Origin: Clostridium sp. | Lineage (GTDB): Bacteria; Bacillota; Clostridia; Lachnospirales; Lachnospiraceae | DNA: 45,953 bases | Reading direction: 5' to 3' | NCBI GenBank assembly: GCA_023664605.1 | Contig: JAMPFF010000001.1 | Span: forward strand, 291,661-337,613 | Shown: one piece after another, positions 1,317-15,009 of the stretch | Position numbering within the stretch: position 1 is the stretch's first letter | How the letters are laid out: the number at the start of each line of letters is the position of its first letter | Made by a program: the position numbers and the translations under genes | The notes under the pieces: generated by a model | What the model was told of the DNA's origin: nothing | The model's database searches: none | The model's input: the letters and a program-made list of their open reading frames with translations, nothing else

Positions 1317-1994
1317 ATGAACAATATGATGAACTTCAGCTATATGACAAGGCTTTGCCATAGTATGGTAAAAACCTCTCAGGTGCAGAGCGGACAGGCG
1401 GACGGCGTCGGATTCTATGATAAGTTAGTGGAAAAGGCAGAGTATAAACAATATATATATGATAAAATCGCGTCGCTTCCCGTGCATTCCTCCAATATGC
1501 AGGACTCCGTAGCGGTTCAGATATCGGACGCCGGATTGGAGGCAATGAGAAACAACCCGGCATATGAAAAGTGGGTTTTGGATACGATAAAGGCAAATTT
1601 TCAGTGTCCTGACCCGTGGAGCGGCGTATGCGGCGGCAAGTTTGTTGTCCTTTATTTTGGCGCGACAAAAGAAGAGAGCCACGGAGAATGCTGGCAGATG
1701 GGGTTTCGGAACGGAAGCGGACAGAAGTTATTTAACGAAAAGGCGAAAGAAAGTTTTTGGGAACGCAGACAGAAGCGCAGAAAGGAATGGCTGGCGCAGT
1801 TGGAGGAGCTGGAAGAAAAGAAAGCGCTTTCTAAAAGAATGGCAAGAAGCCGGTACTTTATGGAGCTATCGTCGATAAAGCCGCTTTTCGGGGAATCGAA
1901 AGAACCGCTTAACTGCGATATGCTGGCGATGCAGATTTTTTCTTCTTTTAAGGCGAATATATTGCTGGGAAATTTTCATGCGAAAAAAGGTTGA
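1317..1994 (+). CDS. Hypothetical protein with VQIS-GLEA motif
   Basis: A 225-residue protein with a strong ribosome site (aaggagg, 7 bases before the ATG). No signal peptide or membrane segment is visible. Near residue 65 it has VAVQISDAGLEAMRNN, which resembles VIVQFSGDGLAALAES in the 29463 protein. I infer that the two share a small domain. The second half has a highly charged Arg/Lys/Glu helix (residues about 140-185), possibly coiled coil. A Cys pair lies in the CPDPWSGVCGGKF segment. The gene heads a three-gene run (1317, 2095, 2924) of unrecognised proteins in one direction, so they may act together. The stop codon overlaps the first hairpin of the structured element at 1989. Function unknown. 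Confidence 0.75.
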   Translation: MNNMMNFSYMTRLCHSMVKTSQVQSGQADGVGFYDKLVEKAEYKQYIYDKIASLPVHSSNMQDSVAVQISDAGLEAMRNNPAYEKWVLDTIKANFQCPDPWSGVCGGKFVVLYFGATKEESHGECWQMGFRNGSGQKLFNEKAKESFWERRQKRRKEWLAQLEELEEKKALSKRMARSRYFMELSSIKPLFGESKEPLNCDMLAMQIFSSFKANILLGNFHAKKG

Positions 1995-2058
1995 AAAAAT
2001 TGTATTTTTTCAACCGCGAGTTTGTGCTGACGTTAATAACGTCCGACACAAACATCGC
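1989..2058 (+). promoter_or_regulatory. Two tandem perfect hairpins between 1317 and 2095 genes
   Basis: The first hairpin has an 11-bp perfect stem (GGTTGAAAAAA at 1989-1999 with TTTTTTCAACC at 2005-2015) and starts inside the stop codon of the gene before it. The second (2016-2058) is three stacked stems: GCGA/TCGC, GTTTGTG/CACAAAC, and an inner GACGTTA/TAACGTC. The order, a GGTTGAAA hairpin followed by a TTTGTG/CACAAA hairpin, matches the longer leader elements at 12544 and 14855, so this looks like a diverged relative. It may act as a terminator, a transcript stabiliser or a regulatory leader for the 2095 gene. Confidence 0.6.
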
Positions 2059-2094
2059 AAGCTAAGTAACAAGTAATAAGAAAGGGGCTAAATT

Positions 2095-11166: not shown

Positions 11167-12543
11167 ATGGAATTTTTGAAAAAATTTATCGAACCGGTGG
11201 ACATGACGGAGGGAACGCCATGGAAAAAGATAGTATTGTTTGCGGTGCCGATGTTAGTAGGAAACATTGCGCAGCAGCTTTATAATACGGTGGACAGCGT
11301 GGTCGTTGGAAACTATGTCGGGGATAATGCGCTGGCGGCGGTAGGAAGCGCGGGACCGATTTTGAATCTCTTGATTGTACTGTTCGTGGGTATCAGTGTG
11401 GGAGCCGGTATCATGGTATCGCAGTATTTCGGCGCAAAGGAGCGTGAAAAGTTATCTATTACGGTCGGCAACTGTATCACGCTGACAGCAATCGCAACTT
11501 TATTCGTTATGGTGGTGGCGTCGTTAGTGGCAAGACCGTTACTGGAACTGTTAGATACGCCGGAGTCCATTATTGACTGGTGTCATTCCTATTTGCTTAT
11601 TTTATTTATCGGTTCGGTGGGGCTGGCGTACTATAATATTTTAGGCGGCATCCTAAGGGGATTGGGGGATTCCGTGTCGGCGCTGGTATATCTTTTGATA
11701 TCCACCGCGATTAATATTGTGCTGGATTTGGTGTTTGTAGCCGGGCTGGGGATGGGCGTCAACGGCGTGGCGCTTGCTACGGTGATTGCACAGGCGGTTT
11801 CCGCGCTGCTTTGTCTGTTCCGCCTGATGAGGATGAAAGAATTATTTGATATCAAACCGTGTTATATGAAGCTAAAGGGCAAATATACAAAGCAGGTTAT
11901 TCAATTAGGGCTGCCCTCCGGAATTACGCAGGCCATTTTTTCCATGGCAATGATTGTTGTGCAGTCTTTGACAAACAGTTTCGGAGAAATGTTTATTGCC
12001 GCCAACGTCATTGTCATGCGTGTGGACGGCTTTGCCATGATGCCGAATTTTTCTTTCGGAACGGCGATGACGACCTATGCCGGACAGAATGTTGGCGCAA
12101 GGCATCTTGACAGGGTGGATAAAGGAGCCAAACAGGGTACTTGGATAGCGATAGCGGTTTCCACGGTCATTACTTCTTTAATCCTGATTTTCGGAAAAGC
12201 GTTGATGGGCATCTTTACCAATACGCCGGAATTAGTGGAACTAAGCCGGGATATGATGGGGATTCTTGCCGTAGGTTATATCGCAATGGCGGTAACGCAG
12301 AGCCTTTCCGGTGTGATGCGCGGTGCGGGCGATACGATGACGCCGATGTGGATTTCCATTGCTACGACCATTTTTATCCGCGTGCCGATTGCATACGGCA
12401 TCTCATTCTTGACGAGAACGCCCGAGCTGCCTAACGGACGGCAGGAATGTATCTTTATCTCGCTTCTTTCTTCATGGCTGATAGGCGCGCTGATTACGTT
12501 TATCTTCTATAAAAGAGGAAAGTGGAAAGAGAAAGCGGTGTAA
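11167..12543 (+). CDS. MATE family efflux transporter
   Basis: A 458-residue MATE-family exporter with about 12 membrane segments. It shows the family-typical FAVPMLVGNIAQQLYNTVDSV opening (positions about 24-44), VVGNYVGDNALAAVG, and YNILGGILRGLGDSVSAL in the first half. A gaggaat ribosome site lies before the ATG. It sits 37 bases after the GH28 gene and could be cotranscribed with it. Its TAA stop is followed immediately (12544) by the first hairpin of a structured leader repeat, with no separate terminator. It resembles the 26709 product more than the 8047 product in its opening segment, but no quantitative comparison was made. Confidence 0.9.
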   Translation: MEFLKKFIEPVDMTEGTPWKKIVLFAVPMLVGNIAQQLYNTVDSVVVGNYVGDNALAAVGSAGPILNLLIVLFVGISVGAGIMVSQYFGAKEREKLSITVGNCITLTAIATLFVMVVASLVARPLLELLDTPESIIDWCHSYLLILFIGSVGLAYYNILGGILRGLGDSVSALVYLLISTAINIVLDLVFVAGLGMGVNGVALATVIAQAVSALLCLFRLMRMKELFDIKPCYMKLKGKYTKQVIQLGLPSGITQAIFSMAMIVVQSLTNSFGEMFIAANVIVMRVDGFAMMPNFSFGTAMTTYAGQNVGARHLDRVDKGAKQGTWIAIAVSTVITSLILIFGKALMGIFTNTPELVELSRDMMGILAVGYIAMAVTQSLSGVMRGAGDTMTPMWISIATTIFIRVPIAYGISFLTRTPELPNGRQECIFISLLSSWLIGALITFIFYKRGKWKEKAV

Positions 12544-12680
12544 GGTTGAAAAAAATCTCTGATGAGCATTTTTTTCAACCTGGAATTTGTGCAGAAACGT
12601 CACAAATTCCCCTGATTGCAGAGCAGAATCCCCGATTCTGCTCGCATCCTCAGCGTAAAACGCTTCGGAATGGAGGAAAA
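12544..12680 (+). repeat. Structured leader repeat, copy 1
   Basis: The segment directly follows the MATE stop and ends with the ribosome site of the next gene. Four hairpins are visible in order: GGTTGAAAAAAA/TTTTTTTCAACC; GGAATTTGTG/CACAAATTCC (10 bp); GAGCAGAATC/GATTCTGCTC (10 bp, 3-base loop); AGCGT/ACGCT. Then TGGAGGAAAA precedes the GTG. The last 67 bases match copy 2 (14855-15009) with two differences, and the first two hairpins also match closely. A shorter relative lies at 1989-2058. Confidence 0.8.
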
Positions 12681-13922
12681 GTGATAACTGAGTTGAAAAT
12701 AATTCTCTTGTTGTCTGCTGCAATCGGAACAGGCGTGGTATTATATCCGACGGGGTATGGCAGCTATTTTGTATCAGAATCGGACGATACTTCGGAGATA
12801 GCGCCGCAGCTTCCCGACTCAGGCGGACAGCTTGCGGATTTCGTGCCGGATGGATGGGAACTGTTAGATAGCGTGGAACTGGATTTTAATGAGGACGGAC
12901 TGTCTGACTATGTAGGCGTGCTGGAACATATCAGGATAGATACGGAAGAGCATTCAGATTATCAGGATTATGAATATCCCCGTATTTTGTTTGCCATAGC
13001 GGGTGAGACAGCAGAGAAGTATCGTCTGGATTTTCAGAATAGCAACCTGATACGCACGGCATATGAAGGCGGCGTTCATGGAGACCCGTATCAACCATTG
13101 ACTGCGGAGAAAACAGCTTTTACCACATCCGCTTATGGCGGCAGTGCGTGGAGATGGTCGGATATATATACCTATACTTATCGTGAGGGCGTCTGGCGGC
13201 TTACTTTATCGGAACATACTTACGGATATCATGAATATATAACGGATTATAGCATGGATGATTGGGAGAAAGGTGTGGGAATCCGAAAAAAGAGAAGTGA
13301 TTCTTGGGAGGCAATGCAAGATGGGGAGTCAACGGAATATGATGTGGTATACGAGGTATCTTTGGATGAACCGATGACATTGCAACAGGCGGGAATGCGC
13401 AATAGTACGCGTGCGGCAGATCGCGTGATGGATTGGGGAGTGGAAGAAATCAGAGTGGCAGAGGACGTGGGGCTTTCGGAGAATATGGTAAGACTTCCGG
13501 AGACTAAAGGATATGTGGATTATACCGATGAAAACTGCGAACTTTATATGTTTGATACCGATTCGGATACGGATGTCTATTATCTTGCCATGTATTCCTG
13601 GCAGGATAAAGTATTGTCAGTGCCGGTGCAAGAAGAGACACAAATAAAATCGCCAAGCGTTTACAAAGGAAAAATCTACTATTCTGCTAATACGGAAGAT
13701 GGAGCCGGAATTTATAGAATAGAACCTGACGGAACCGGAAAAGAAATGATTTTTGCATACCATTGTCCGAAAGACGAAATTCCATGGAGCTGGATATATA
13801 TATTTGAAATCAGTGGGGATGAGATTATTGCGGAAGTATTTGTAGGAGGCGGACAACCTGATTTCATCTACCGGATGAATATTGATGGGAGTGAGTGTAA
13901 GGAGATAGGGCGGATACCGTGA
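12681..13922 (+). CDS. Membrane-anchored or secreted hypothetical protein
   Basis: About 413 residues from the GTG at 12681, which I choose because the conserved leader ends in GGAGG 4 bases before it; a longer in-frame reading back to 12522 would run through the leader repeat. The N-terminal ELKIILLLSAAIGTGVVLY is a signal anchor or signal peptide without a lipobox Cys. Residues about 55-75 hold an acidic loop (DFNEDGLSDY). The C-terminal 150 residues show strand repeats such as KGKIYYSANTEDGAGIYRI and DFIYRMNIDGSECKEI, similar to DUF5050-type beta-propeller blades. It probably faces outside the membrane. The PIN-like gene starts within its stop codon (GTGA), so the two are coupled. Confidence 0.75.
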   Translation: MITELKIILLLSAAIGTGVVLYPTGYGSYFVSESDDTSEIAPQLPDSGGQLADFVPDGWELLDSVELDFNEDGLSDYVGVLEHIRIDTEEHSDYQDYEYPRILFAIAGETAEKYRLDFQNSNLIRTAYEGGVHGDPYQPLTAEKTAFTTSAYGGSAWRWSDIYTYTYREGVWRLTLSEHTYGYHEYITDYSMDDWEKGVGIRKKRSDSWEAMQDGESTEYDVVYEVSLDEPMTLQQAGMRNSTRAADRVMDWGVEEIRVAEDVGLSENMVRLPETKGYVDYTDENCELYMFDTDSDTDVYYLAMYSWQDKVLSVPVQEETQIKSPSVYKGKIYYSANTEDGAGIYRIEPDGTGKEMIFAYHCPKDEIPWSWIYIFEISGDEIIAEVFVGGGQPDFIYRMNIDGSECKEIGRIP

Positions 13923-14368
13923 GAATAAAGAGAAAAGTGGTAAAACCCGAGTATTGTTATAACAGACCATTTGACGACCGGACACAGGAGAGGATTTATT
14001 TGGAAAGTGAGGCTATTTTAACAGTTCTGAAAATGGGCCAGATGAAAAAGATTATCGTTGCAGGAAGCGAAATTCTGGATTTGGAAATCAATCGTATGCA
14101 AGATGAAAATAAAAAACAGAGAGTATTAGATTTATATAAGGTGGCTGGTATACATATACCATACACAGAAATGATTAGAAAGCGTTCTGCAGATATCATG
14201 TCAATTTCAAAGATACGCACATTTGACAGCCTTCACATTGCGGCGGCAGAGGAAGCTGATGCAGACGTACTTTTGACAACTGATGATAAATTTGAAAAAA
14301 TGGCGGAGAAACTGGAATTGAAAATAAGGGTAATGAATCCCCTTAGATTTGCATGGGAGGTAATTTAA
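13919..14368 (+). CDS. PIN-domain protein lacking the usual first Asp
   Basis: A 149-residue PIN-like protein. Its GTG start overlaps the preceding stop (GTGA). After residue 12 it follows a PIN subfamily well: CYNRPFDDRTQERIYLE, then ILDLEINRM, and the late acidic segment FDSLHIAAAEEADADVLLTTDD. The first strand, normally ending in a catalytic Asp (pattern YLDTCCYNRP in relatives I remember), reads VVKPEYCYNRP here, so the first metal-binding Asp is replaced. The N-terminal 11 residues look like they come from a junction with the upstream gene. It may be an inactivated toxin or rely on the neighbouring Glu. The small partner gene follows directly. Confidence 0.75.
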   Translation: MRIKRKVVKPEYCYNRPFDDRTQERIYLESEAILTVLKMGQMKKIIVAGSEILDLEINRMQDENKKQRVLDLYKVAGIHIPYTEMIRKRSADIMSISKIRTFDSLHIAAAEEADADVLLTTDDKFEKMAEKLELKIRVMNPLRFAWEVI

Positions 14369-14563
14369 ATGTTGAATGTTAATTTGAGCAATCCGATAGA
14401 GATAAGAAATGCAGGTGTGAAAGCATTACAGGAGGCATTAGGACCTGTAGGAATGGTAAAATTTATGCAGCAGTATGATATGGGATATGGAGATTATACA
14501 AGGGAAAAACAGGAACAGCCGGACATTAGCCTGGATGAGGTTGATATGTTGTTGAGAAAATAA
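14369..14563 (+). CDS. Small partner protein of the PIN gene (putative antitoxin)
   Basis: A 64-residue protein whose ATG directly abuts the PIN gene stop. The core ALQEALGPVGMVKFMQQYD, followed by MGYGDYTREK and ending in SLDEVDMLLRK, is a small protein type I recall next to PIN genes in Firmicutes. It shows no obvious DNA-binding fold. The order toxin-then-partner is the reverse of the Phd/PIN pair at 4.5-5.2 kb. It is probably the antitoxin, but this rests on position and recollection. A terminator follows at 14618. Confidence 0.7.
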   Translation: MLNVNLSNPIEIRNAGVKALQEALGPVGMVKFMQQYDMGYGDYTREKQEQPDISLDEVDMLLRK

Positions 14564-14617
14564 TTATTACTTTAGGATATTGTTGGTATAAGAGAGCTAA
14601 AAAGCTAGACAACAAAA

Positions 14618-14656
14618 CCCCCAAAACCGCATTTTTGCAGTTCTGGGGGCTTTTTT
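14618..14656 (+). terminator. Rho-independent terminator after the PIN/partner genes
   Basis: CCCCCAAAACCGC pairs with GCAGTTCTGGGGG across a short T-rich loop and is followed by CTTTTTTA. It ends the transcript that reads from the MATE or leader region through 14563. Confidence 0.8.
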
Positions 14657-14791
14657 AGGGGAGGATAAGTATTTCCTTATCTTTTGACTAATATCATTGT
14701 TGCCGGATATAGAAATATTATTCATAATTTTTTGGTTTTTTTAGAAAAAATATAAAATGATATAAAATTTTACAAGAATTAGTTAAGGATA

Positions 14792-14820
14792 TTTACTTTT
14801 GACACAAAATGTTGTATACT
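14792..14820 (+). promoter_or_regulatory. Possible promoter of the SEC-C to thrS operon
   Basis: TATACT (14815-14820) is a good -10 box. The 17-base spacing points to TTTACT (14792-14797) as a weak -35 box; the nearer TTGACA at 14799 is only 10 bases away and does not fit. The surrounding 14657-14800 is very AT-rich, which could act as an UP element. This lies between the terminator at 14618 and the structured leader at 14855. Confidence 0.4.
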
Positions 14821-14854
14821 AACAAGGTATGATTATAGAAAAAGGTGGTTATAA

Positions 14855-15009
14855 GATTGAAAAAAATCTCTGATGAGCATTTTATTCAATAGACTGAACA
14901 AGTTCAGTCGGAATTTGTGTAGAAGCGTCACAAATTCCTCTGATTGCAGAGCAGAATTCCCGATTCTGCTCACATCCTCAGCGTAAAACGCTTCGGAATG
15001 GAGGAAAAG
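14855..15009 (+). repeat. Structured leader repeat, copy 2
   Basis: It has the same hairpin series as copy 1 (12544-12680), with an extra inserted hairpin GACTGAAC/GTTCAGTC at 14892-14909 (18 bases). The GAGCAGAAT hairpin keeps pairing through one G-U pair. The end is identical in layout: AGCGT/ACGCT hairpin, then TGGAGGAAAAG and the ATG at 15010. An AAAGGTGG ribosome site before a TTG (14857) could also drive an 11-codon leader peptide ending at TAG. The gap 14564-15009 therefore holds a terminator, a promoter region and this leader. Confidence 0.8.

Follow-up and report, generated by a model that had tools for sequence, protein, structure and literature searches.

Integrases that enter tRNA genes restore them, in that the element brings a replacement for the gene part that it cuts off, and the bcr1 repeat of the Bacillus cereus group is a mobile sequence of about 155 bp with a structured RNA. 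Both resemble in part the element considered here, which occurs in 45,953 nucleotides of Clostridium sp. (GCA_023664605.1, contig JAMPFF010000001.1, 291,661 to 337,613 of the forward strand; this whole stretch is referred to as the window, and positions count from its start). The element probably represents a family of small mobile elements, non-autonomous and site-specific, that are inserted before start codons in the chromosomes of Lachnospiraceae and carry a Shine-Dalgarno (SD) sequence. It differs from bcr1 in host and in target, and from the tRNA-gene integrases in that it would restore a ribosome-binding site, at many different gene starts.

Miniature inverted-repeat transposable elements (MITEs) and small repeats such as RUP, Correia/NEMIS and ERIC are, in the portion of one account available to us (PMC2229807), non-autonomous and about 100–200 bp long, with structured transcripts and TA termini, all of which the element shares, as it does the copy number of MITE-like repeats. 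Inverted ends are a defining feature of MITEs, however, and the element is without them but has a fixed place and orientation before the start codon, and an SD. The terms 'ribosome binding', 'Shine-Dalgarno' and 'start codon' are absent from the main text, as far as it was available, of a review of prokaryotic MITEs (PMC10969869). The pneumococcal BOX repeat shares modular hairpins, insertion into one another and structured leaders, but its orientation-dependent effects imply that both orientations occur, and in the available part of the source terminal inverted repeats are mentioned and a tie to start codons is not (PMC3049150). IStrons, which combine a group I intron with an insertion sequence (IS), likewise make insertion harmless to the host gene, although according to the part of the source at hand they do so by splicing out (PMC4227781), whereas the element has no intron match and carries an SD instead. 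Searches of the literature, which covered few subscription papers, gave no recognised description of an element that carries an SD and lies at start codons, and the family is absent from Rfam 15.

Two copies in the window (12544-12680 and 14855-15009) had been described in an earlier note made from the sequence alone, and they are present as described: they share direct repeats of 100 and 38 nt at 95% identity, with the hairpins in the same order, and their last 67 bases show two differences. A G-U pair that the note saw tolerated in a stem is real (a T-G pair in the third hairpin), as is the additional perfect hairpin found in copy 2 only, and the domain search agrees that a gene for a SEC-C protein follows copy 2. 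The statement that the repeat ends in an SD plus a start codon holds for copy 1, which ends in TGGAGGAAAA followed by GTG, whereas in copy 2 one base (G) separates TGGAGGAAAA from the ATG. Folding is better than that of dinucleotide shuffles by z scores of −8.6 (copy 1) and −5.3 (copy 2), none of 200 shuffles being equally good. A covariance model, R1, was made from ten copies in the source genome, with a short calibration that leaves its E-values rough; it scores copies 1 and 2, from which it was partly built, at 151.5 and 126.3 bits, and detects a third, divergent copy in the window (29.9 bits, E 1e-5). Hammerhead-like words in copy 1 (CUGAUGAG and GAAAC) are not conserved in other copies.

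The mobility of the element is argued from a close relative, G034 (record set JAMPCN), in which the same genes are found at the sites of copies 1 and 2 and the element is absent. At one of these sites G034 has GCGGTGTAAAAATGATAAC, where the source genome has GCGGTGTAAG-element-GGAGGAAAAGTGATAAC, and at the other G034 has GGGCATTATAAAGATGG as against GGTTATAAG-element-GGAGGAAAAGATGG. When 48 copies of the source genome were searched in 0.96 Mb of G034, both flanks were recovered for 19, and the site flanks are mostly 89–97% identical between the two genomes. Ten of these sites are element-free in G034, including both of those in the window (L032, L034, L035, L036, L037, L047, L050, L059, L060, L091; L035 and L059, at fabZ and the next gene, first came to notice as interrupted BLAST matches), five are filled alike (L044, L052, L090, L104, L106), two hold a different version of the element (L033, L058) and two comparisons are ambiguous (L094, L099). 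At both window sites and at L050 the sequence of G034 does not resemble the 3′ end of the element. One of the filled orthologous sites, L090/L362 (1804-1941), has a GAAC..GTTC hairpin in the G000 copy and none in the G034 copy, so that this optional module appears to come and go. At the start of a PPDK-type gene (L033/L355, 8469-8565) the two related genomes carry different versions of the element, as if the site had been refilled.

Copies were pooled from four sources. The 62 R1 matches in the source genome at E≤1, of which about 50 are convincing, gave 50 listed and 48 used, one copy cut by a contig end (L054) and a second L049 row being left out; from a named set, 81 of 86 matches were used (five contig-cut rows omitted), and 23 of 25 from G034 and 43 of 44 from other genomes, where antisense echoes of P1, the left-end helix, were omitted and the other copies were those ranked best in the searches. 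The named copies came from a search pattern in which helix P2 and its loop are fixed (at least 116 stretches matched, 80 loci taken), so that their P2 is not independent. Named and G034 rows may overlap; after removal of two exact duplicates the 195 pooled rows became 193, of which 189 have a 3′ flank.

A start codon lies 0–3 nt past the model end in 171 of these 189 copies (160 ATG, 8 GTG, 3 TTG), and in 128 of the 171 it is an ATG at exactly 1 nt. Orientation is fixed as well: an ATG occurs 0–4 nt past the 3′ end in 159 of 186 copies, against 6 of 186 with an antisense ATG outside the 5′ end, and when the ATG has to begin an open reading frame (ORF) these counts become 151 and 0. When an ORF of at least 50 aa, or one running off the locus, is required, a start codon follows 41/48 copies in the source genome, 69/80 in the named set, 17/20 in G034 and 34/43 elsewhere, compared with 1404 of 20,000 random points on either strand. 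The copies are thus not placed at random with respect to genes, random placement being one of the two conditions under which the earlier note would have held the repeat to be inert. The genes downstream are unrelated and often belong to the core (FabZ, IlvD, RuvA, a gyrase-B type protein, PALP, S18, SmpB, a methionyl-tRNA synthetase type protein, HrcA, YchF and DHFR, together with a trigger-factor-like protein whose score is below the curated cut-off).

The ends of the element are clearest at L050, where G034 has ACTTAATATG and the source genome ACTTA-G...GGAGGA-TTAATATG. Among 119 copies with both ends readable, 88 have the same dinucleotide ahead of the first G as at positions −4 and −3 relative to the start codon (54 TA, 31 AA, 3 CA), against a mean of 46.8 and a maximum of 62 in 2000 shuffles. 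Our reading of the element is therefore G...GGAGG(A/T), inserted 4 nt before the start codon, with NA as the putative 2-nt target repeat. Terminal inverted repeats were not detected: the left 10 nt match the reverse complement of the right 10 at a mean of 3.8 positions in 157 copies (3.9 when shuffled), with none at 9 or more. Because such repeats are absent, the element falls outside the strict definition of a MITE, and the earlier description of a MITE-like element supplying 5′ untranslated regions is apt as regards mobility and the supply of a ribosome site but not as regards the class.

Insertion shifts the original leader of the gene, together with any native SD, about 130–150 nt upstream, and the SD of the element takes its place. 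This SD belongs to the element, because the G034 sites of L034 and L050 contain no GGAGG, which also rules out that the right-hand SD is a duplicated native one. P1 is absent in 32 of the 189 copies, 30 of which keep the SD word and the start codon, so that loss of the left part is unrestricted while the SD end persists, the outcome expected under selection for the new SD; we infer that the SD of the element is used. According to the mechanism proposed here, the element would enter with a uniform orientation, about 4 nt ahead of the start codon and so between it and the native leader, a 2-nt repeat (mostly TA or AA) would come to flank both ends without terminal inverted repeats, and the terminal SD, at the right spacing, would give the interrupted gene a new ribosome site and make the insertion nearly harmless. 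By carrying its SD along, the element can apparently spread without switching off genes.

The family varies in sequence around a constant architecture. A DNA search of the source genome gave 14 clear copies of 74–100% identity; element length is mostly about 130–160 nt, and subtypes differ in the sequence of most stems but keep the order of left-end P1, P2, P3 (which has a bulged A), a short stretch that varies and the SD, the GAAC..GTTC hairpin sometimes standing between P1 and P2. Tandem copies or remnants occur at L129, L135, L142, L182 and L049, the second standing between the first's SD and the start codon or the next copy. Two deletion copies of different subtypes, L101 (1242-1309) and L102 (1204-1270), have the same junction, with the P2 5′ arm joined to the pseudoknot 3′ strand, and L161 (4965-5098) is a copy with an element remnant upstream that by eye stands ahead of an apparent serine recombinase gene.

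Within the genus sample R1 matches were found in 29 of 37 genomes, as well as in one genome of another family, and G012, G017 and G021 (98–100% complete) have none at E≤0.01. Across Lachnospiraceae, the wider search that the earlier note had proposed, 37 of 250 genomes (36 of 249 genera) contain matches, 17 of the carriers with at least ten copies (no more than 13 were scored per genome) and 13 with one; going by record titles among the matches listed, carriers include Acetatifactor, Eisenbergiella, Roseburia and Parablautia. Viral contigs gave no match in an exact pattern scan, and phage and plasmid collections none by blastn at the sensitivity used, so that a phage or plasmid vehicle found no support there. 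In an Rfam 15 scan of the window nothing reached the gathering score except two tRNAs, and a permissive scan of seven copies gave sub-threshold matches only; an intron match was absent from both. For L001 (1498-1597) the best sub-threshold match is TD-2, on the opposite strand (37.4 vs 48.7 bits).

In an alignment of 30 copies, drawn from a number of genomes and subtypes, 95.8% of 1311 cells are paired in a structure of three helices and a pseudoknot; the L050-L052 subtype, whose 7-nt loop is misplaced, was kept and counts as broken P2 pairs. Compensatory changes, which the earlier note had proposed looking for, are found: 29 of 45 pairs have changed on both sides, compared with 17.6 in shuffles (none of 500 as high) and 6–12 in slid structures. 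The pseudoknot joins the P2 loop to the bases directly 5′ of the SD, with 5 of its 9 pairs covarying, and its strands vary together, as in CCGGAGCGU/ACGCUCCGG, CCGAAGCGU/ACGCUUCGG, GUCAGAGC/GCUCUGAC, UCUGAGCGA/UCGCUCAGA and CCUUUCAG/CUGAAAGG. P2 was located by script in 110 of 129 copies, and true pseudoknot pairs have a mean pairing weight of 21.8, as against 16.3 when tails are swapped between copies with different loops. G-T mispairs outnumber A-C mispairs 41:10 in the pseudoknot (92/129 copies, best-fit register), with ratios of 11:4 in P2, 14:12 in P1 and 17:19 in P3; counts by structural part come from the best 45 rows of each alignment, and all rows together give 90:68. As proof of an RNA fold these counts held only for the pseudoknot, weakly for P2 and not for P1 or P3. 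For the pseudoknot there is good evidence that the plus strand RNA is the folding molecule; for P1 and P3, which might be read as DNA, the evidence points neither way.

Features of the two main window copies and of the third are collected in Table 1. Between copies 1 and 2 (13919-14563) lies a gene for a PIN-domain protein, followed by an adjoining 64-aa ORF, possibly a toxin-antitoxin-like pair.

Table 1. Positions of the element copies, their parts and the adjoining genes in the window.
Feature	Position	Strand	Basis or remark
Putative left 2-nt target repeat AA, copy 1	12542..12543	+	Last two bases of the MATE gene stop codon; comparison with G034 empty site
Element copy 1, net insertion ~133 nt	12544..12676	+	Sequence, G034 comparison, R1
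Helix P1, copy 1	12543..12581; 14-nt arms 12543-12556 and 12568-12581	+	Inverted repeat, folding
Helix P2, copy 1	12582..12610; arms 12582-12591 and 12601-12610	+	Folding
Pseudoknot 5′ strand, copy 1 (P2 loop)	12592-12600	+	One pseudoknot pair broken here (A-C)
Helix P3 with bulged A, copy 1	12617..12646	+	Folding
Pseudoknot 3′ strand, copy 1, directly 5′ of SD	12660..12668	+	Pairing; family-wide evidence
SD GGAGG within copy 1	12672..12676	+	Sequence
Putative right 2-nt target repeat AA, copy 1	12677..12678	+	4 nt ahead of GTG 12681
Gene downstream of copy 1, 413 aa, DUF5050 match	12681..13922	+	ORF, domain search
Putative left 2-nt target repeat AA, copy 2	14853..14854	+	Native SD-like AAAGGTGG immediately upstream
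Element copy 2, net insertion ~151 nt	14855..15005	+	Sequence, G034 comparison, R1
Optional extra hairpin between P1 and P2, copy 2	14892..14909	+	Same module in L046, L090-L093
Helix P2, copy 2 (loop 14920-14928, pseudoknot 5′ strand)	14910..14938	+	Folding
Helix P3, copy 2	14949..14971	+	Repeat and folding
Pseudoknot 3′ strand, copy 2	14988..14996	+	Pairing
SD GGAGG within copy 2	15000..15004	+	Sequence
Putative right 2-nt target repeat AA, copy 2	15006..15007	+	4 nt ahead of ATG 15010
Gene downstream of copy 2, SEC-C protein, 168 aa	15010..15516	+	ORF, domain search
Third, divergent copy	1990..2092	+	R1 match; ATG at 2095

Several observations weigh against a mobile element aimed at start codons. 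Movement is read from site comparison only, and at L032, L037 and L059 the sequence before the ATG in G034 resembles the 3′ end of the element, so that the G034 allele there may be a remnant left by loss or truncation. An exact 2-nt repeat is seen at some of the sites compared with G034 and not at others, because the genomes differ by about 5–10% there, and the dinucleotide agreement is partly a subtype effect, because type 1 prefers AA. No start codon stands at the model end in 18 of the 189 copies, in some of which the model runs past it (L087, L089, L109) or the copy is tandem (L182). Among exceptions to placement before a start codon with an ORF, by eye, L135, L142 and L182 are tandem copies, L049, L057, L111, L112, L116, L119 and L164 have an ATG with a very short ORF, L060, L067, L366 and L384 have ATT or ATA in its place, and in L087 and L109 the model overshoots the ATG. 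The SD word is missing at the model end of nine copies that have P1: in L082 and L184 an SD lies further downstream, L087, L089, L107 and L109 are of a divergent subtype, L182 is the first of a tandem pair, L348 is a weak match and L049 precedes no long ORF. Among the swapped pseudoknot pairs, 466 of 2116 reach the observed median, because subtypes share sequence. The fixed distance could also come from selection for a working SD instead of targeting.

Finally, the mobilising gene was not found, four of the five families tested being undetected in the source genome (95.5% complete, in 78 contigs, from which repeats may be missing) despite its ~50 copies. The Y1 transposase domain (PF01797) was undetected there and in G008, G028 and G030, the last three with 52–54 scored copies each, and may have been lost after the spread or lie in an assembly gap. 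The reverse transcriptase domain (PF00078) was undetected in the source genome, G002, G008, G019 and G034, and the IS110 DEDD recombinase (PF01548) in the source genome, G013 and G028. The IS630-type domain (PF13358) was found in one of 22 genomes, the source genome not among them, other DDE families not having been searched, and serine recombinases (PF00239) in all 22, carriers and non-carriers alike. By presence and absence in these 22 genomes of the genus (PF01797 in 7, PF00078 in 10, PF01548 in 10, PF13358 in 1 and PF00239 in 22) none tracks the element.

The earlier note offered a portable regulatory leader as one of two readings and described the repeat as driving its genes; in such a leader the SD-adjacent pseudoknot would sense a ligand, a protein, temperature or the state of the ribosome and so govern a scattered regulon. 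The covarying pseudoknot with its 3′ strand against the SD speaks for this, as does its excess of G-T over A-C mispairs, expected if plus strand RNA folds. We nevertheless regard it as unlikely, since the downstream genes have no common theme, orthologous genes are element-free in the close relative, and copies without P1, some also without P2, persist. Occupying the pseudoknot strands, moreover, increased the predicted openness of the SD in no more than 9 of 32 copies (on average 0.43 with the strands free and 0.41 with them occupied, in a calculation that ignores tertiary structure and ribosome binding), and a switch in which the pseudoknot releases the SD from an anti-SD is unsupported. The claim of a regulatory role, given unrelated genes, patchy presence and the lack of a consistent effect on predicted SD accessibility, and that of driving the genes were not borne out; in G034 these genes are present where the element is absent, and the empty site there also has the promoter-like site that lies 5′ of copy 2 and is itself at chance level. 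The fold and pseudoknot would seem to have more to do with movement or the stability of the RNA than with regulation.

Random insertion of an ordinary short repeat, with only correctly oriented copies before start codons surviving, would agree with the view, in the available parts of two sources, that many small bacterial repeats are passengers (PMC2229807, PMC3049150). A repeat inserted further upstream, or between convergent genes, should do no more harm than one before a start codon, but one distance and one orientation dominate, and the copies listed above before an ATG without a long ORF also argue against survival alone; this explanation we consider quite improbable, and we infer that the insertion site is not set by selection alone but targeted. 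A strong fold, the plus strand wobble bias of the pseudoknot and a site that is marked by the ribosome on mRNA could instead suggest an element copied through RNA, by reverse splicing or reverse transcription, or spliced from mRNA in the manner of an IStron. There is very little to recommend this, as a reverse transcriptase domain was undetected in the five genomes named above, intron matches were absent from the window and the seven copies, and an SD of its own would be useless to an element after splicing.

The site-specific mobile element thus remains the preferred reading. A bolder form of it, which we put forward tentatively and with the balance slightly against it, is a new class of mobile element that would target the translation start (NA-NN-ATG) in one orientation, restore the displaced ribosome-binding site, use a pseudoknotted RNA in its mobility machinery and occupy dozens of genes cheaply, core genes included. 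A puzzle would then be how the start codon is recognised, on DNA or RNA, with no Y1, reverse transcriptase, IS110 or IS630-type enzyme detected. If the reading is correct, a mobile element enters the most sensitive spot of a gene, the junction of leader and start codon, by bringing the displaced piece with it, which would provide a testable model of harmless insertion besides splicing and tRNA-gene repair. The 5′ leaders of about 50 genes would have been rewired in this genome, and likewise in several relatives, and the element would have to be allowed for when genes and leaders of Lachnospiraceae are annotated and by gene finders.

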